Shown: positions 1 to 12,616 of the stretch, in pieces
Layout: each line of letters opens with the position of its first letter
Position numbering within the stretch: the stretch's first letter is position 1
Assembly (NCBI RefSeq): GCF_000337775.1
Contig: NZ_AOLQ01000007.1
Location: 1-64,000, forward strand
From: Haloarcula vallismortis ATCC 29715
GTDB taxonomy: Archaea > Halobacteriota > Halobacteria > Halobacteriales > Haloarculaceae
Direction of reading: 5' to 3'
DNA: 64,000 nucleotides
Program-made: the position numbers and the translations under genes
Notes under the pieces: model-generated
The model's database searches: none
What the model saw: the letters and a program-made list of their open reading frames with translations, nothing else
Told to the model about the DNA's origin: nothing

Positions 1-7
1 GACACGG

Positions 8-26
8 AACACTCAGCCGGAGTGTT
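8..26. terminator. short perfect hairpin near window edge
   Basis: A 7-bp perfect stem (8-14 with 20-26) closes a 5-nt loop. It may be the terminator of a gene lying outside the window, or chance. AT-rich sequence follows at 41-66. Nothing else is recognised in positions 27-160. Confidence 0.3.
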
Positions 27-161
27 TGCTCTCGTCGTATAGGTATTTTATATGTTCGCTATATAGACAGCTGTAGCACTACTGGCGAAGTCAGCAGTGG
101 TCCGATACGCTCAGGGCAGCAACTCGATGCCAGCAACGGGCTGTCGGATCATCCGCTCACG

Positions 162-244
162 TCGTCCGCAATGGAGGAACTTTTTCTGAGCGGGGGAGTG
201 GGACCCGCTGGCGATGACGAGATGTTACCACCGCTGAGAGCCAG
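162..244 (+). ncRNA. permuted or partial C/D-box sRNA-like copy
   Basis: Positions 214-220 read ATGACGA (C-box-like). A 13-nt spacer follows and then CTGA (D box, 234-237), enclosed by a 5-bp stem (208-212 with 240-244). Just before it, 166-193 contains a second CTGA (186-189) bounded by CCGC/GCGG and preceded by an ACTTTTT tract. That segment resembles the second guide unit of the complete C/D-like sRNA at 3967-4033, but here it precedes rather than follows the first unit. The copy therefore looks circularly permuted or rearranged, and its second C box is degenerate. It may be a functional single-guide RNA, a relic or a recombination scar. Positions 245-371 show no gene or further structure. 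Confidence 0.4.
209..238 (+). repeat. direct repeat, left copy (flanks helicase gene)
   Basis: This 30-bp segment matches 3970-3999 at 29 of 30 positions in the same orientation. The repeat covers the C box, first guide and first CTGA of the C/D-like sRNA. The two copies bracket the whole helicase gene, 3.76 kb apart. Confidence 0.85.
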
Positions 245-371
245 TTTCTATTAATTGATTGCTTGGCCGGTGACATCGTGTTCAGATACGCAGATTCGTG
301 GACCGATCGGAGACTGGGCTATATCGGCACCCGCTCGTTCTATGTACGCCGGTTTTTATCGACAGTCAACA

Positions 372-3300
372 TTACTCAGCGGGTTCGATTCGCGTATCGC
401 TGTGTACTATCAGGTCTGTCGTGCCCTTCCATTCGTCCAGCCGTGGGTTTATAAACTGATACGTTGTACCCTCGGAGAGTTCCGGGGAACCATTGCCACT
501 CCAGACCGTCACATACAGTTCTTCAGAGCCATCCCAAGCGTATCCCTTCTGTTGTATATTATCCGGGAGATCGTCGAAGAGACTCTGCACCTCTGCTTCG
601 ACGATAGTATCTGTGGATTCGGGCTCGGAGTCCGCTTTCCCGAGAGGGAGTATCTCAGTCGCCTCCGTCAGGTGCAATTGTACTCGGCCCTGGAATTCGT
701 CGACTCTGACACCACGCAGTTGGTATCTCATCTGCTGCTCTAACATTGTCACGTCGGTGCCATCCCAGATAATAAACTGGCACGCTCCGGTTTCGTCGGT
801 AAATGTACCCTCCTGTTGTTTTGACTCGTGACTGTCATCGTTGATGGTGGTGACGACGCCCTCGACGGTTACCGTGTCATCAGCACTATCTAACGCGTTC
901 AGTTGATGTATGTCGGTCAAGTGTGCCTCGATCTCGTTAACGAATTTGGACTGGTTCCCTCTCTGCGTGCAGATATCCAGTGTTTGCTCGGCTCGTGTAA
1001 TCGCTACGTAGAACAGCCTGCGTGCCTCTGCCTCACTGTTCGTATCGACCGGCTCAACGGGGGCGAGTAAATTGTCACGGTCTGCAAGCGGAATCCCATC
1101 ATCATCATCGGTAGCGTGCAAGATAATGACGTGTTCTGCCTCTCTCCCCTTCGATTGATGAATCGAAAAGACCGACACGCCGTCGTCGTCATACCCCACT
1201 GCCGACCACGGTCCGGAATTGGTTCGATACTGGTCGTCTTTGCCATCGTACGGAATCCGCCGCTGTTCAAGTTTGGTTTTGACTGCGTCGAGATACGGAG
1301 CTCCTCGGTCCAGATGGCAGAGGATCATGATATCTTCAGGAACGGCGGATTCGTCCTCGAGATAGCGCTGGGTACGCTCAGCGGCGAACTCACCAACCGA
1401 TTCTTTGTACTCATATCTCGAACCGTCCGGCAAGATATGTAACTGTGGGTCCGCTTCGGTACCAGACTCAACACGCTGCTGTTTGCTAATTTGCTTGTCG
1501 TTGTGTTCGATGAGCGCCTCGCCCGTGCGCACAACCTGAGACGGGCTCCGATAGTTCTTGGTCAGCATCGTCCGCGTGTGGGGGGCGAAGTGATCCCCAA
1601 ACTCTACGAAGTATTTCACCTCCGAGCCCTGGAACGAATAGATACTCTGCCAGTCGTCACCGACACAAAATAACCGTGGATTGTCAGCCCCGTCGGTGAA
1701 CCGAGACAGAAGTTCAACATTCATCCCAGAGACATCCTGAAACTCGTCGACAAGAACGTGTTCGTACTGATCCGCGTATGCCGTGCCAGGATCGGCAACG
1801 GCATCTATAGCCGTCGAGATCATATCGCTGAATATCATCAGCCGATTCGCATCTATATATTCGGCAAAGTCCTCGTACAGTTTGATACCACACTGGCCGA
1901 AGTAATACTGCCGTGGATCGTCTTCTGTCAGGTGCCGCCTGATTTCGTCCCGGCTGAGATTAAACTGCCGGGCCTTCTGCACAAAGTCTTTGAATTTACT
2001 GTATATCTGACCCTCTACGTCGTTGTACTGATATGTGTCTTCGATGAGTTGTGTTGTCGATTTCGGGGTCAGAGACACGCCATTGAGTTCTAGTCGATGT
2101 GCGAGGACTTGCTCAAGCCGCCCGTTCTCGTGCTGGAATTCATATGTGTTGATCAATCCGAATTTCTCTGCGGTCTCGAACTGCTCTCGTGCCCACAGGA
2201 GTTTCTCGATGTATTCTTCGCTGGTCCACGAAAACCACGGAGCGACGTCTGCGTTTTCGTCGAGCCCCCAGTGTTCGATATAGAGGTCGTGGTCTGGCAG
2301 ATAGAAATCCGGATTGTAACTACCCTTATCGGCAGCAGTCTCAGCCCAGGTAGCGAGGTCCTCATGCCGGTATTCGACTCCGTGTTCAAACAGCCAATCC
2401 GCGATTTTCTTTTCGGCGTGAGATTCGACCTCTTCTCCTTTGAGCGTCGTGTACCGTTTCTCGCGTCTGGCCTCGAAGAATTCTTCCCTCGTATCGAATT
2501 CGCTCTGCTGCAAGAGGTCGGTATTCAATCGCCGAAGAAACTCCGCATAGAACTCCCGGAACTCGGGGTCTGTCCGCCTTCGTTCGGGCACCGTGTCTTT
2601 GATAAAATTGAGGATGTCGTCGCCTACAATCAGATCCCGGGGACGATCTAAGTAGTCCATCGCAATGTTCAGCCCGAACGAATGGAATGTTGAGCATTCG
2701 ACACTGTTGATATCGAACCACTCCTCGAGTCGTTGTTCCATCTCCTCTGTGGCCGAGTTCGTCAACGTAAGTGCGATAATCTCTTCGGGATCAACGCCGA
2801 GTTCATGGATTAAATACGCGATTCTAGCAGTGAGAGTTACCGTTTTTCCGGTTCCCGGGCCAGCGACGACCTGGTTTGCTCGGTTGTTCCTGACAACCGC
2901 CTGCGCTTGCTTAGTGTTGAGACTGTGATTCTCGTCGTCGTACTCTTCGAACAGGTGGCGGGAGCGTTCTATTTCGTGCGCTACGAACCCCTCGATGTTC
3001 TCACCTCCCTCGTTGTACTGCTCGACGAATTCCCGATCAGCTCTGAGTTGGGACTCGAGTTCGTCGAGTCGGTCACGAACTGCCTGTGGTGGCGTCTCCA
3101 GTTGGTTTCGTGCGTCGGTGACTCGACTGACGAGGCTCTCAAGTTTCCTAATCAGTTGTTGTTGTTCATCAGACGGGAGATATTCATCGTATTTCCGAAG
3201 CGATGTCGATGGTCGACATAAGTTTCGATGTCGACGGCGTATCGTCTCAACGTCATCACGAATCTTCACAGCAGCCTGGAGGGCGGTTAGTTGCCGTTTG

Positions 3301-3734
3301 AGGTCGTTGAATTGTTCCAGCTCGGATTTAGTAAGGTAGGCACACCAAAGCTGCTGACTTGTTGGAGGGGTGTGCTCGATGTCATACGCAGCTGTCCCCG
3401 TCTCAACTGCACTCTCCAATTGCTGGTTGAGTGCATCTATTCGCTGTTCGATTGGCGTTATATCGTCCAGTGGGGGGATAGCACGGTCAGTAGCGGCTTT
3501 CTTGTCGCTTCGGAGCCACGGTTCCTTGAGTGTGGTCTGGTACAGCTGGCGACAGTCCGCTACTTCGGTCTCGCTGTTCTCAGCCCACGTCGACAATGCG
3601 TCAGCGATATCCTGTCGGAGATGCTCGTGAGCAGTTTGGTCGGGAACCGAAACAAAGCGTCGTAGGAGCGGTACTCGGCTGGGGAGAGTCGACTCTTCCT
3701 CAGTGAGCCACTGCTGTGTATTAGTCCACGGCAT
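372..3734 (-). CDS. UvrD/Rep-type SF1 helicase with nuclease-like insert and OB folds
   Basis: A 1120-aa ATP-dependent DNA helicase of superfamily 1. Helicase motifs are visible: Walker A AGPGTGKT (291-298), TFHSFG (349-354), DEFQD (663-667), GDDWQSIYSF (about 692-701), a motif V region IHQSKG (about 858-863) and YVAITRAE (about 908-915). Inside the helicase core, residues about 435-490 resemble a PD-(D/E)XK-type fold (conserved Glu, then YNPDFYL and YIEHWGL), although the usual Lys is Trp. The N-terminal 270 residues are charged and probably helical. After the helicase core two OB-like segments follow (about 955-1035 and 1045-1118), which could bind ssDNA. The gene stands alone, is clearly more AT-rich than its neighbours and is bracketed by a 30-bp direct repeat, suggesting acquisition. 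Repair or anti-mobile-element defence are both possible; the SF1 call is firm, the nuclease and OB calls are inference. Confidence 0.85.
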   Translation of the reverse strand: MPWTNTQQWLTEEESTLPSRVPLLRRFVSVPDQTAHEHLRQDIADALSTWAENSETEVADCRQLYQTTLKEPWLRSDKKAATDRAIPPLDDITPIEQRIDALNQQLESAVETGTAAYDIEHTPPTSQQLWCAYLTKSELEQFNDLKRQLTALQAAVKIRDDVETIRRRHRNLCRPSTSLRKYDEYLPSDEQQQLIRKLESLVSRVTDARNQLETPPQAVRDRLDELESQLRADREFVEQYNEGGENIEGFVAHEIERSRHLFEEYDDENHSLNTKQAQAVVRNNRANQVVAGPGTGKTVTLTARIAYLIHELGVDPEEIIALTLTNSATEEMEQRLEEWFDINSVECSTFHSFGLNIAMDYLDRPRDLIVGDDILNFIKDTVPERRRTDPEFREFYAEFLRRLNTDLLQQSEFDTREEFFEARREKRYTTLKGEEVESHAEKKIADWLFEHGVEYRHEDLATWAETAADKGSYNPDFYLPDHDLYIEHWGLDENADVAPWFSWTSEEYIEKLLWAREQFETAEKFGLINTYEFQHENGRLEQVLAHRLELNGVSLTPKSTTQLIEDTYQYNDVEGQIYSKFKDFVQKARQFNLSRDEIRRHLTEDDPRQYYFGQCGIKLYEDFAEYIDANRLMIFSDMISTAIDAVADPGTAYADQYEHVLVDEFQDVSGMNVELLSRFTDGADNPRLFCVGDDWQSIYSFQGSEVKYFVEFGDHFAPHTRTMLTKNYRSPSQVVRTGEALIEHNDKQISKQQRVESGTEADPQLHILPDGSRYEYKESVGEFAAERTQRYLEDESAVPEDIMILCHLDRGAPYLDAVKTKLEQRRIPYDGKDDQYRTNSGPWSAVGYDDDGVSVFSIHQSKGREAEHVIILHATDDDDGIPLADRDNLLAPVEPVDTNSEAEARRLFYVAITRAEQTLDICTQRGNQSKFVNEIEAHLTDIHQLNALDSADDTVTVEGVVTTINDDSHESKQQEGTFTDETGACQFIIWDGTDVTMLEQQMRYQLRGVRVDEFQGRVQLHLTEATEILPLGKADSEPESTDTIVEAEVQSLFDDLPDNIQQKGYAWDGSEELYVTVWSGNGSPELSEGTTYQFINPRLDEWKGTTDLIVHSDTRIEPAE

Positions 3735-3966
3735 GATGTCGAAAGCTACGAGCTGCTTGCTGACTGGTAGCGGTGGAGGCTAATAAATCACGCTTTTGCT
3801 CGGATTATCGAAATGTTTCCAGTCCCCAGAGGCAACGGTACGCGTTTGGGTGTTGGGACGTCTGTTTACTCCGGATCGGATATACGAAGGACTTCTCGGG
3901 ACGAGACTCCGCGTTCCACACGTCCAGAACGAACGAGTTTTTCACGAAGGGCAGTCTACCACGCAC

Positions 3967-4033
3967 TGGTGGCGATGACGAGATGTTACCCCCGCTGAGC
4001 CCCTTGTGACGATGGACTTTTCCTGAGCCACCA
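3967..4033 (+). ncRNA. candidate C/D box guide sRNA
   Basis: A complete archaeal C/D-box layout is readable: a 7-bp terminal stem (3967-3973 with 4027-4033), C box ATGACGA (3975-3981), a 13-nt guide (3982-3994), D' box CTGA (3995-3998), a 7-nt linker, C' box GTGACGA (4006-4012), a 10-nt guide (4013-4022) and D box CTGA (4023-4026). Both C boxes carry the same RUGACGA variant of RUGAUGA. Family knowledge: L7Ae, Nop5 and fibrillarin would assemble on such an RNA to 2'-O-methylate rRNA or tRNA, five nucleotides upstream of each D/D' box. I could not identify a target. A T-rich TATA-like stretch lies near 3936-3943. It sits between the helicase 5' end and the rhodanese 3' end in a 317-bp gap that otherwise holds only the helicase promoter region. 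Confidence 0.6.
3970..3999 (+). repeat. direct repeat, right copy (flanks helicase gene)
   Basis: Partner of the 30-bp repeat at 209-238, with a single C/A difference in the guide segment. It lies inside the candidate C/D sRNA, upstream of the helicase start codon. No transposase or integrase is present between the copies. Confidence 0.85.
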
Positions 4034-4051
4034 TTTCACTCCAAACAGCAG

Positions 4052-4438
4052 CTAAAACGGTGCAGCAGGACCTTCGTCGGTGTCTCCGTCAGCAGCCGCA
4101 GTGTCTGCCGTCGCCTCCCCGTCAGCGGTTGCACGTTCCAGCGGCCCGTCCCAGCCGTTCAGCCCTGGTTCAAAGCTCACAACGTCGCCATCAAAGCCTT
4201 CATACGACGCGATAAGCCGGGCAGCCTGGACGCTAGACTTCCCCTTCGGACATACTGTCACAACCTCGTCGTCGCCGTCGAACCGTTCGACTTCGTCAAC
4301 GAGCGACGGGAACGGGACGTTCTCGCTTCCGGGAATGTGGCCTCGCTCGAACGCGCCGGGCGAGCGGATATCGACCACTCGGACCGCCTCCTCGTCGAGT
4401 TTCGACCGTAGCTCGTCGGTGTCGATTTCGCCGTCCAT
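4052..4438 (-). CDS. rhodanese-like sulfurtransferase domain protein
   Basis: A 128-aa single-domain rhodanese homologue. The family moves sulfane sulfur through a persulfide on the active-site cysteine; here the loop is CPKGKS (63-68), with Cys63 as the probable acceptor. The N-terminal DIRSPGAFERGHIPGS segment is the usual CH2A-type motif. The C-terminal 25 residues form an Ala/Asp-rich tail that is probably disordered. It follows the Nudix gene by 38 nt in the same direction and may be the last gene of that operon, although a TTTAGG TATA-like box near 4460-4465 could give it its own leaderless start. The donor and acceptor are not evident. Confidence 0.85.
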   Translation of the reverse strand: MDGEIDTDELRSKLDEEAVRVVDIRSPGAFERGHIPGSENVPFPSLVDEVERFDGDDEVVTVCPKGKSSVQAARLIASYEGFDGDVVSFEPGLNGWDGPLERATADGEATADTAAADGDTDEGPAAPF

Positions 4439-4476
4439 ACCCAGCCGCTAGCGGCCGATGCCTAAACCTTCACCGG

Positions 4477-7465: not shown

Positions 7466-9439
7466 CTAGTCGTCTGCAGGCGCAGCGCCGCCGTCGTCGT
7501 GTTGCTGCTTCGTGTGCGAGAGCTTGCCACCGGCGGCGAGGATCTCGCGTTCGCGCTCGGAGGCGTCAAGCTGGCCGGTCGCTTCCCAGTCGTCGTTCAC
7601 GCGGATGGTGAACTCTGTCTGGCCGGATTTGACTGCCTCGGCCGCGTCGTCGACGATCTCGATGTCGTCGCCTTCCTCGATCTTCTCGTAGGTCTCCTCG
7701 TCGATGGTGAGCGGGACGATACCGAAGTTGAACAGGTTCGCCTTGTGGATGCGGGCGAAGCTCTGTGCAAGGACGGTCTCGATACCCAGGTACATCGGGC
7801 ACAGGGCCGCGTGTTCACGCGAGGAGCCCTGACCGTAGTTCTCGCCAGCGACGAGCACACCGCCGTCGGCTTCGAGTGCGCGCTCCGCGAACGTGTCGTC
7901 GACACGCGAGAGCGTGAACTCGGAGAGCTTCGGGACGTTCGACCGGTACATCAGGATGTCCTGTGTGGCCGGGATGATGTGGTCCGTCGTGATGTTGTCC
8001 TCCATCTTGAGGAGGGCCTCACCACCGACTTCCGTCTCCAGCGGGTCCTTCAGCGGCACGTCACCGATGTTCGGGCCCTTGATGAGCTCGTCGTCGACGG
8101 CGTTGTCCGGCGCGATGAGGTCCGATTCGGAGTTGCCGATGTACTGGTCGGGCATCTCCAGACCCGGCGCTTCGAGGTCGCCGAGTTCGTCGGCGAGGTC
8201 TCGCGGGTCGACGATTTCGCCTTTGATGGCCGCCGCGGTGGCGACTTCCGGCGAGCAGAGGTAGACGTTGTCGTCCTCGATGCCGGAGCGACCCTCGAAG
8301 TTGCGGTTGAAGGTTCGCAGCGAGACTGAATCGGAGGCTGGGACGTGACCGATGCCGATGCAGGCACCACACGTCGCCTCGGAGAAGTTGACGCCGGCGG
8401 CCATCATCTCCGCGGTCCAGCCCTCGCGGGCCAGCATCTCGGAGGCCTGCTTGGAGCCGGGGGCGACGATCATCTCGGTCTTCTTGTCGATGTTGCGCCC
8501 TTCCAGCATCTTCGCGGCCGGGAGGATGTCCTCGTAGGCGCCGTTCGTACAGGAACCGATCATGACCTGCTCGACGTCGACGCCCTCGACCTCGGAGACG
8601 GGGACGACGTTGTCGGGCATGGACGGCTCGGCGATGAGCGGTTCGAGGTCCGAGAGATCGACGACGATCTCGTCGGCGTACTCGGCGTCCTCGTCGGGGC
8701 CGATGTCCTCGAAGACGTCCTCGCGGCCGAGGCGCTCGAGGTAGTCCTTGGTCTGGTCGTCCGTCGGGAAGATAGAGGACGTTGCACCGAGCTCGGTCCC
8801 CATGTTGGTGATGGTGGTCCGCTCGGGGACGGTCAGCGTCTCGACGCCGGGACCGGTGTATTCCAGCACCTTGCCGACGCCGCCCTTGACCGAAAGCCGG
8901 CGGAGCAGCTCCAAGATGACGTCCTTGGCGGTGGCCCATTCGGGCAGCTCGCCTTCGAGGCGGACGTTGACGACTTCCGGCATCTCGATGTAGTAGGCAC
9001 CGCCACCCATCGCGACGGCGACGTCGAGCCCACCGGACCCGATGGCGAGTTCACCGAGGCCACCGGGGGTCGGCGTGTGCGAGTCGGACCCGAGCATCGT
9101 CTTGCCGGGTGCGGCGAAGTTCTCCTTGTGGACGTTGTGACAGATACCGTTACCGGGGCGTGAGAAGTGAGCCCCGAACGTACCCGCCGCAGAGCGGAGG
9201 AAACGGTGGTCGTCGGTGTTCTTGAAGTCGAACTGATATGTCTGGTGGTCACAGTACTGTGCGGCCAGTTCCGTCTGGACCTCTTCGAGGCCCAGCGCTT
9301 CGAACTGCAGCCAGACGAGCGTCCCGGTCGTGTCCTGTGTCAGCACCTGATCGATCTCGATACCGATCTCTTCTCCGGGTGTTAGCTCCCCTTCGACGAG
9401 ATGGTCGTCGAGAATTTTTTCCGTAAGCGTCTGTCCCAT
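7466..9439 (-). CDS. acn: aconitate hydratase
   Basis: A 657-aa [4Fe-4S] aconitase that interconverts citrate and isocitrate in the cytosolic TCA cycle. Cluster ligands are visible: Cys297 in GSCTNG and Cys357/Cys360 in TCGACIG. GSDSHTPTPG and the C-terminal GENYGQGSSREHAA swivel-domain motif are typical. The frame extends 28 codons upstream, but the ATG at 9439 opens the conserved MGQTLTEKIL sequence, and a TATA box (9465-9472) is 28 nt upstream, fitting a leaderless mRNA. The protein is shorter than bacterial AcnA (about 890 aa), as expected for the archaeal/mitochondrial-like type. A homologous function such as homoaconitase is unlikely. Confidence 0.95.
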   Translation of the reverse strand: MGQTLTEKILDDHLVEGELTPGEEIGIEIDQVLTQDTTGTLVWLQFEALGLEEVQTELAAQYCDHQTYQFDFKNTDDHRFLRSAAGTFGAHFSRPGNGICHNVHKENFAAPGKTMLGSDSHTPTPGGLGELAIGSGGLDVAVAMGGGAYYIEMPEVVNVRLEGELPEWATAKDVILELLRRLSVKGGVGKVLEYTGPGVETLTVPERTTITNMGTELGATSSIFPTDDQTKDYLERLGREDVFEDIGPDEDAEYADEIVVDLSDLEPLIAEPSMPDNVVPVSEVEGVDVEQVMIGSCTNGAYEDILPAAKMLEGRNIDKKTEMIVAPGSKQASEMLAREGWTAEMMAAGVNFSEATCGACIGIGHVPASDSVSLRTFNRNFEGRSGIEDDNVYLCSPEVATAAAIKGEIVDPRDLADELGDLEAPGLEMPDQYIGNSESDLIAPDNAVDDELIKGPNIGDVPLKDPLETEVGGEALLKMEDNITTDHIIPATQDILMYRSNVPKLSEFTLSRVDDTFAERALEADGGVLVAGENYGQGSSREHAALCPMYLGIETVLAQSFARIHKANLFNFGIVPLTIDEETYEKIEEGDDIEIVDDAAEAVKSGQTEFTIRVNDDWEATGQLDASEREREILAAGGKLSHTKQQHDDGGAAPADD

Positions 9440-11503: not shown

Positions 11504-11887
11504 ATGACCCGTGTCGCGCTCATCGCACACGACGACGAGAAGCCAGAGATGATCGATCTGGCACAGAGTTACGAATCGACACTCTCGGAGTTCGATCTCG
11601 TCGGAACTGGCACGACGAGCAAGCGTATTATGGCCGAGACCGACCTCACGGTCGAGCGCAAGGAGAGCGGGCCGATGGGCGGCGACACACAGATCGGCGC
11701 GGAAGTCGCCGAGGGCCGGATGGACGGCATCGTCTTCCTCCGGGACCCGCTGACGGCACAGCCCCACGAGCCGGACATCTCAGCGCTCCTGCGCATCTGT
11801 GACGTCCATGACGTGCCGCTGGCGACGACGCGGACCTCGGCGGAATACGTTCTCGACGGGCTGGCCCAAGACACAGCCGACGACTAG
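11504..11887 (+). CDS. mgsA: methylglyoxal synthase
   Basis: A 127-aa homologue of MgsA, which converts dihydroxyacetone phosphate to methylglyoxal and phosphate. Diagnostic sequences are GTGTTSKRI near residue 35 (phosphate binding), [17 protein letters not shown] (about 55-71, with the catalytic aspartate) and [15 protein letters not shown]. The HAMAP-type length for this family is about 130-150 aa. A weak TATA-like ACATAAG is near 11473-11479. It is a monocistronic unit convergent with queC; in haloarchaea such a bypass may relieve sugar-phosphate overflow, but that is inference. Confidence 0.92.
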
Positions 11888-11917
11888 CCCGTCAGAAGGC
11901 AACCGTTCGCGGGCTGC

Positions 11918-12616
11918 CTACTCCGCGTACGTCGGTCGCTCCGCGTACTCGATGGGGTCTCGCTCGCCGATGCGCTGGAAGGCTTCGAGCCGGAAGGCGC
12001 AGGCGTCACACGTCCCACAGGCCGGTTCGTCGTCCCGGTAACAGCTCCACGTATCCTCGTAGGGGACGCCGAGTTCGACGCCGCGCTCGGCGATGTCGGT
12101 CTTGGACCACTCGATGAAGGGCGCGACGAGGTCGATGTCCGTCTCTGGCTTCGTGCCGGCGTCGATGACGCTCTGAAAGGCGTCGAAGAAGGCGGGCCGG
12201 CAATCCGGATACCCCGAGAAGTCCTCGCTGTGTGCGCCGATGAAGACGGCCCCGCAGTCGTTGGCCTCGGCGTAGGAGACAGCCATCGACAGCAGGTTCG
12301 CGTTGCGGAACGGGACATACGAGGTCGGAATCTCGTCGCTGTCGGTGTCGGCGTCGGCCACGTCCATCGAGTCGTCGGTCAGCGACGACGCACCGATCTG
12401 CGTGAGGTGGCCGGTCTCGACGTGGAGGAAGTCCGCCGCGTCGACGTGGTCGGCCAGTGCGCTGGCACAGTCGTACTCCCGGTCTTCGGTGTTTTGCCCG
12501 TAGCTCGTATGGAGGAGATACAGGTCGTCGTAGCCGCGGGTCTGTGCTTCATAGGCCGCCGTGGCGCTGTCCATGCCGCCGGAGGCGAGCACGACAGCGC
12601 GGGTGTCGTCAGTCAT
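11918..12616 (-). CDS. queC: 7-cyano-7-deazaguanine (preQ0) synthase
   Basis: A 232-aa PP-loop ATPase. QueC converts 7-carboxy-7-deazaguanine, ATP and ammonia to preQ0. The PP-loop SGGMDS is at 12-17, and a C-terminal zinc site is formed by four cysteines in CYRDDEPACGTCDAC. The longest frame starts at a TTG within the queE stop codon; the ATG at 12616 is preferred because it opens the conserved TDDTRAVVLASGG sequence. It is the last gene of the queD-queE-queC operon. In archaea preQ0 is inserted at position 15 of tRNAs and turned into archaeosine. Confidence 0.95.
   Translation of the reverse strand: MTDDTRAVVLASGGMDSATAAYEAQTRGYDDLYLLHTSYGQNTEDREYDCASALADHVDAADFLHVETGHLTQIGASSLTDDSMDVADADTDSDEIPTSYVPFRNANLLSMAVSYAEANDCGAVFIGAHSEDFSGYPDCRPAFFDAFQSVIDAGTKPETDIDLVAPFIEWSKTDIAERGVELGVPYEDTWSCYRDDEPACGTCDACAFRLEAFQRIGERDPIEYAERPTYAE

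Follow-up and report, generated by a model that had tools for sequence, protein, structure and literature searches.

Two similar stretches of a C/D box sRNA gene flank a large helicase gene near the end of a contig of Haloarcula vallismortis ATCC 29715, which raises the question of how the two copies and the gene between them came together. We analysed the window, that is, the first 64 kb (64,000 nucleotides) of contig C7 of its own assembly, by comparison with other genomes of the genus, the family and the class. The comparisons indicate that the window carries an occupied integration site inside a C/D sRNA gene. Coordinates of the features are given in Table 1.

An intact and a truncated sRNA copy around the helicase gene

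The right copy has every part of an archaeal C/D box sRNA, in agreement with the first-pass annotation of this DNA: C box ATGACGA, D' box CTGA, C' box GTGACGA, D box CTGA and the terminal stem TGGTGG/CCACCA, which is also present in the predicted fold. The first guide unit of the left copy, likewise described correctly, is 209-238; it matches 3970-3999 at 29 of 30 positions (E ~2e-7 for the whole genome) and is the sole further match in the genome. The exact bounds of the left copy are 206-238. A relic of the second guide unit had been placed in front of it (~162-205), and this did not withstand comparison, as relatives with a single sRNA have the same stretch (CGTCCGCAACGGATGCACTTTTCCCGAG..., with TTTT at -28) before their sRNA. 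The gene between the copies was seen to be AT-richer, as had been noted; its GC content is 50-55%, against 62-66% on the right side.

The window begins at a contig end, 205 bp upstream of the left copy, and the gene upstream of the site is therefore absent from the contig. Rfam models detected one tRNA only in the window, away from the site, so that the integration site is not a tRNA-gene attB.

Table 1. Features of the sRNA locus in the window, and same-genus empty sites compared with its joined flanks (1-223 + 3985-4440)
Feature	Position	Strand	Basis or remark
Chromosomal left flank	1-205	+	72-84% alignment to the sequence immediately upstream of the single sRNA in same-genus empty sites
Old native sRNA promoter region, cut off from the intact gene	~158-205	+	Promoter comparison; T-tract shifted to -25
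Left junction: remnant sRNA 5' half (C box, D' guide, D' box)	206-238	+	29/30 identity to 3970-3999
Putative recombination core, left copy (GTTACCACCGCTGAG)	224-238	+	Same 15 bp between two arms on a Haloarcula pelagica plasmid; strand exchange apparently bracketed here
Conserved element end: spacer AGCCAG and arm TTTCTATTAATTGAT (consensus ACCCAG TTTCTATTAATAGAT)	239-259	+	20-sequence alignment A2
Cargo: 1120-aa SF1A helicase (UvrD/helicase IV-like) with C-terminal OB-fold-like stretch	372-3734	-	Pfam
Probable element-supplied replacement sRNA promoter (TTTT at -29, AACGAACGAG upstream)	3920-3966	+	Without match in empty sites
Intact C/D box sRNA	3967-4033	+	Boxes and terminal stem; predicted guide for Gm1950
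Putative recombination core, right copy (GTTACCCCCGCTGAG)	3985-3999	+	Joined flanks align as one piece to empty sites
Chromosomal right flank	4034-4440	+	89-98% identity of 3967-4440 to both occupied and empty same-genus genomes
Rhodanese-like gene in right flank	4052-4438	-	
Empty site L040 (G040)			93% to joined flanks
Empty site L041 (G026)			91% to joined flanks
Empty site L037 (G005)			87% to joined flanks
Empty site L038 (G076)			87% to joined flanks
Empty site L036 (G086)			85% to joined flanks

Empty sites define the extent of the insert

A single sRNA was present in each of six sampled genomes of the same genus. When the two flanks of the window were joined (~680 bp), they gave an uninterrupted alignment to five of these empty sites at 85-93% identity; the sixth (L039) aligned in two pieces, with the gap further upstream. 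The element-only pieces 246-371 and 3735-3966 had no match in the empty sites. As the joined flanks match the empty sites and the element-only pieces do not, the insert extends from ~224 to 3984 (3.76 kb). It has a short core directly repeated at both ends, together with a matching empty site, as is characteristic of integrative elements.

Alignment of the locus in related genomes had been proposed as a way to find an empty site carrying one intact sRNA, and such sites do exist in the same genus. With these, and with other genera carrying unrelated cargo at the same place, the earlier suggestion of a mobile gene, or of one integrating at an sRNA locus, gains strong support. Two other parts of the first-pass annotation, the permuted copy and the duplication that trapped the gene, had to be given up. 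The left copy is better described as the native promoter and native 5' half joined to a conserved element end; in the right copy, a promoter and 5' half supplied by the element precede the native 3' half.

The sRNA locus in haloarchaeal genomes

The sRNA was matched in 80 of the 96 family genomes; a model of the sRNA 5' half matched 389 of the 391 class genomes. A model of the 5'-type junction (the type in the window) found this junction in a minority of the 391. The site is occupied in ~19 of 391 class genomes, including 7 of the 24 in the window's genus, and additionally on plasmids; the count is approximate, with weak or contig-end cases (G003, G155). Inserts measure 0.75-19 kb and are single or tandem, and the spacing between the left junction and the intact sRNA varies from 750 bp (G082) to 17.7 kb (G403). 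Cargo unrelated to that of the window, with the same kind of left end, occupies the site in other genera. In the 20-row alignment A2 (the window and 19 left junctions), this end consists of a 5' half ending in CTGAG, then ACCCAG, then TTTCTATTAATAGAT.

Tandem cassettes were found in G013 and G344, and arrays of three each in G152 and G367. In G152, the native promoter and the intact sRNA come first and are followed by three cassettes, each having a 3'-type end, where TAATCTATTAATAGATNNTGT precedes GTTACCCCC and then the sRNA 3' half. A model of this 3'-type junction gave further cases in G141, G367 and G289. On a Haloarcula pelagica plasmid, the core has an arm on each side, ATCTATTAATAGAT-ATTGC-GTTACCCCCGCTGAG-ACCCAG-TTTCTATTAATAGAT, and plasmid pHmuk01 of Halomicrobium mukohataei carries a Fic cassette with both ends. 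Judged from these comparisons, the sRNA locus is an integration hotspot.

Some further sRNA copies were observed. On the Haloarcula pelagica plasmid (L100, ~11880-12036), the two-armed core is immediately preceded by a full-length but degenerate sRNA. G152 has a second sRNA copy (G152:C1:304134-304180) ~1 Mb from its cassette array (L163, G152:C1), and two copies were also seen in several other genomes (G007, G012, G017, G075).

The inserts rebuild the sRNA gene

Both types of insert leave an intact sRNA, in line with the restored target of integrative elements. The 5'-type inserts bring a new promoter and the sRNA 5' half, and the 3'-type inserts bring the 3' half. All 14 native promoters compared have a T-tract at -28/-29 relative to the start of the sRNA. 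The right ends of 5'-type inserts have little sequence in common otherwise, yet the tract is at this position in 16 of 16. This fixed spacing indicates that 5'-type inserts supply a promoter besides the 5' half.

A 39-kb island around one sRNA is present in G289 (L164, L205 and L206; G289:C2:204000-248000). It has the native 5' half at one end, a native-type 3' half at the other end and, between them, a different intact sRNA; Dnd genes, a CARF protein, a Mre11-Rad50-NurA-HerA cluster and three recombinases also belong to the island. The 5' remnant and the outer 3' remnant share their type with the related genome G367, and the intact sRNA and the inner 3' remnant are of another type. Going by these types, an element-supplied gene seems to have taken the place of the native one.

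Core, arms and the point of strand exchange

All the inserts have in common palindromic arms TTTCTATTAATAGAT and a 15-bp core, made up of the D' guide and the D' box. A search of the 391 genomes for exact copies of the 12-bp palindrome TCTATTAATAGA gave 20 places, of which 14 are sRNA junctions; elsewhere, the arm is rare. The reversed control of this sequence gave 14 single matches, so that the signal lies in the location of the matches and not in their count. Six exact arm matches without a core (G055, G341, G355, G367 at 905 kb, G342 and G337) were accordingly attributed to chance. Paired exact arms were not found in the class genomes; the second arm is missing from 5'-type junctions, and the 5' half of the sRNA stands in its place.

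Differences between the repeats within a locus help to locate the exchange. In G093, the left copy has the base of the empty site (GAGATG) and the intact copy has GAAATG; as only the left copy keeps the empty-site base, the intact 5' part should be element DNA. In G339, the remnant reads CTGAG and the intact copy CTCAG. The 3'-type remnants of G367 and G289 have CTTG where the sRNA has GTTA. Each of these differences alone could be a later mutation; taken together, they would place the exchange in the CCCCC-N-C stretch. The size of this stretch is compatible with the 7-bp overlap of known tyrosine recombinases (PMC8371274).

A search of phages, IMG/VR contigs and circular forms yielded none with the attachment site; 47 bare-core and 12 paired-arm matches in IMG/VR were judged to be chance. 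In the window, the left copy and its arm carry mutations, so the insert there may have lost its mobility.

The core as a predicted guide for helix 69

Helix 69 of 23S rRNA contains GGGGGUAAC, with which the D' guide GUUACCCCC can pair. No 23S rRNA match was obtained in the window's own assembly, and the pairing was made with the 23S rRNA of two relatives. Counting 5 nt from box D' leads to the fourth G of the run in GGGGGUAAC, as expected of a guide and its target. For the second (D) guide, no convincing target was found in our search. PMC2584109 reports Gm1950 (E. coli 1909) in helix 69, as well as a C/D sRNA candidate for it, Pyrococcus sR41-like, with relatives in 25 archaeal genomes. From the shared target, the sRNA of the window is presumably the same as that candidate. 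The likeness lies in a D' guide that complements helix 69 at the G reported as methylated; the difference is that the haloarchaeal gene doubles as an attachment site. A core that is also the guide for a fixed ribosomal target would explain the stability of the site, as with tRNA genes.

Cargo of the inserts

Family searches were done on representative cargo proteins, and the rest were assigned by similarity to them. The cargo consists mainly of toxin-antitoxin genes (Fic, MNT, VapBC, HicA, TumE, MazF-like) or defence genes (Dnd). Fic genes are present in G093, G231, G079, G032, G013 and pHmuk01, and a Doc-like Fic in G401. MNT nucleotidyltransferases were found in G344, G244, G339, G037 and G152, TumE with an HTH partner in G344, HicA with a DUF7387 partner in G082, PIN/VapB-type pairs in G152 and G367, a PemK/MazF-like toxin in G152 and a VapB antitoxin in G244. 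The 17.7-kb insert of G403 carries ars, copper and PIN-like genes and no recombinase, and G141 carries universal stress proteins; the ars and stress-protein names come from sequence reading. G289 has a Dnd set (DndC, DndD, DndA) with a CARF protein, and a Mre11-Rad50-NurA-HerA cluster in which the Mre11 names also come from sequence reading. Some cargo had no family match, for example proteins of 190 aa in G013 and 162 aa in G344.

The helicase of the window matched Pfam UvrD-helicase (2.6e-47) and UvrD_C (8e-14). It occurs in 6 of 92 family genomes, the window's own included, and was not found in the six sampled same-genus relatives. Against the DNA helicase IV model it scored 232 bits, with a cut-off of 543. 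Its best PADLOC match was GajB of the Gabija system, yet 55 generic UvrD-type models also matched it, and this assignment was not retained. The helicase may have some role in defence. Its relatives with 41-44% identity were seen in five family genomes (L228-L232).

Recombinase genes

The element in the window and every small cassette lack a recombinase, and thus do not carry an integrase of their own. Only in G289 did we find an integrase-bearing element; this 5'-type element encodes a tyrosine recombinase (L164:14191-15399), TR402, and two serine recombinases. TR402 has Phage_integrase and SAM-like domains, and an upstream small ORF, leucine-zipper-like (coiled-coil-like), is conserved beside its relatives; a second helper candidate overlaps the integrase frame. 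Against the archaeal XerA/integron integrase model, TR402 scored 56.8 bits, far under the 220-bit cut-off. The G244 cassette contains a C-terminal piece with 61% identity to TR402. G155 has a 60% identical piece near a contig end, at a distance that fits a 5' remnant at another contig end. More distant relatives (34-43% identity) are located at places without this core, and neither core nor arm was found near the relatives elsewhere.

The sole complete recombinase-bearing element also contains two serine recombinases; from the gene content and the related pieces, the responsible enzyme is probably the tyrosine recombinase. Three recombinases by the truncated end in G145 (L161) were dismissed, having no relation to the other sites. 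The remnant in G244, 54 residues long (L086, 5906-6067), lies ~300 bp from the intact sRNA.

Proposed mechanism and alternative explanations

We are highly confident that a site-specific recombinase integrated the cassette of the window at a fixed attachment site in the C/D sRNA gene. The enzyme, most likely of tyrosine type and acting in trans, would have exchanged strands within a core of ≤15 bp (GTTACCCCC-N-CTGAG), which is simultaneously the D' guide and the D' box. The cassette, being of 5'-type, would have come with a promoter of its own and with another sRNA 5' half, so that the sRNA after integration would be composed of the element promoter, the element 5' half and the chromosomal 3' half. 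The native promoter and 5' half would then persist as a decaying remnant on the far side, joined to the element end (ACCCAG-TTTCTATTAATAGAT). The 3'-type members would supply the 3' half and let the native promoter stay, with a 3'-half remnant behind the mirror-image arm. Genome comparison directly provides the occupied and empty sites, the core and arms, both insert types, the arrays, their cargo and the replaced promoters.

Could the locus have arisen without a dedicated recombinase? Host homologous recombination of plasmid cassettes through the ~33 shared bp of the sRNA would account for plasmid-borne junctions and cassettes, and for the many inserts lacking a recombinase. We consider it very unlikely, as the exchange appears limited to the core, a recombinase-bearing element exists, and arms, which such recombination does not require, are conserved in 20 left-end junctions and have mirror-image counterparts at the right end of 3'-type inserts. 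A transposon making a long target-site duplication at a preferred site, in place of conservative site-specific recombination, would also give a fixed target, direct repeats and inserts mostly without a recombinase; it is extremely unlikely, since the repeat differences within loci assign the 5' parts to the element and the 3' parts to the chromosome, one core is common to two mirror-image insert types and carries tandem arrays, and the inserts have no common transposase or terminal inverted repeat. As for a tandem sRNA duplication with one copy permuted and the helicase trapped in between, the gene is indeed flanked by two similar copies, and the sequence in front of the left copy is similar to the sRNA 3' half (GGAACTTTTTCTGAGCGG versus GGACTTTTCCTGAGCC). 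Empty relatives already have that sequence upstream of their single sRNA, and the joined flanks align to empty sites without further steps. In other genera, where the cargo is different, the left copy runs into the same end sequence. The duplication is scarcely credible for these reasons.

The left remnant might itself be a functional mini C/D RNA or a regulator of the cassette. The window remnant can form a 5-bp stem with element sequence (GCUGGC/GCCAGU; z -1.65), and in most cassettes the remnant still has a promoter at -28. However, the stem is missing from most remnants, several have indels in the guide or C box, and the promoter spacing of the window remnant has shifted to -25; hence, such a function seems highly unlikely. 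Returning to integration by a site-specific recombinase, it would entail excision and movement of the cassettes, and transcription of the rebuilt sRNA. At a broader level, it is evenly balanced in our judgement whether haloarchaea possess a cassette system in which a conserved guide sRNA gene serves as a universal dock and a trans-shared recombinase builds toxin-antitoxin and defence arrays on both sides of it, the working sRNA of G289 being wholly element-supplied.

Relation to known systems

In the review of archaeal tyrosine recombinases, the targets listed are tRNA genes, protein genes and intergenic sites, with no mention of sRNA or snoRNA genes (PMC8371274). A full-text search of open-licence papers gave no published case of an archaeal C/D sRNA gene as attB, and earlier reports are possible. 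SNJ2-type and related tRNA-gene elements (PMC8371274) resemble the inserts described here in having attB in a structural RNA gene, a short core (13 bp in SNJ2, 15 bp here), and an RNA gene restored by the element with a partial copy at the other end. The tyrosine recombinase of G289 beside a small coiled-coil-like gene may be a further likeness. Unlike those elements, the inserts here target a C/D box sRNA, mostly lack a recombinase and comprise two mirror-image types on one core. The pTN3-type elements (PMC8371274) also target the 5' half, in their case of tRNA genes, and rebuild the RNA gene under an element-supplied promoter. Here, that promoter is not the one of the integrase but a stand-alone copy at the native sRNA spacing, and inserts usually lack the integrase gene.

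Integron gene cassettes are small, have no recombinase of their own, stand in tandem at one site and frequently carry toxin-antitoxin genes. The small recombinase-free cassettes of haloarchaea, with their one-site tandem arrays and toxin-antitoxin cargo, are similar. They differ in that the core is in a host RNA gene, and that neither a linked integrase platform nor an attC-like element was seen.

C/D box sRNA genes would thus be a new class of integration target. Toxin-antitoxin and defence genes collect at one predictable address, and the neighbours of the sRNA could reveal new haloarchaeal defence systems. Mobile DNA would here bring replacement parts, promoter included, for a nearly universal guide of ribosome modification, which makes the essentiality of the guide and its exchange between species testable.

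An element end with a partial core (CCCCACTGAAACTCGATTTCTACTAATAGAT) was also observed in L162 (G282:C3, ~8889-8923), in frame within a 153-aa CopG/NikR-like ORF; it is perhaps a secondary integration site.
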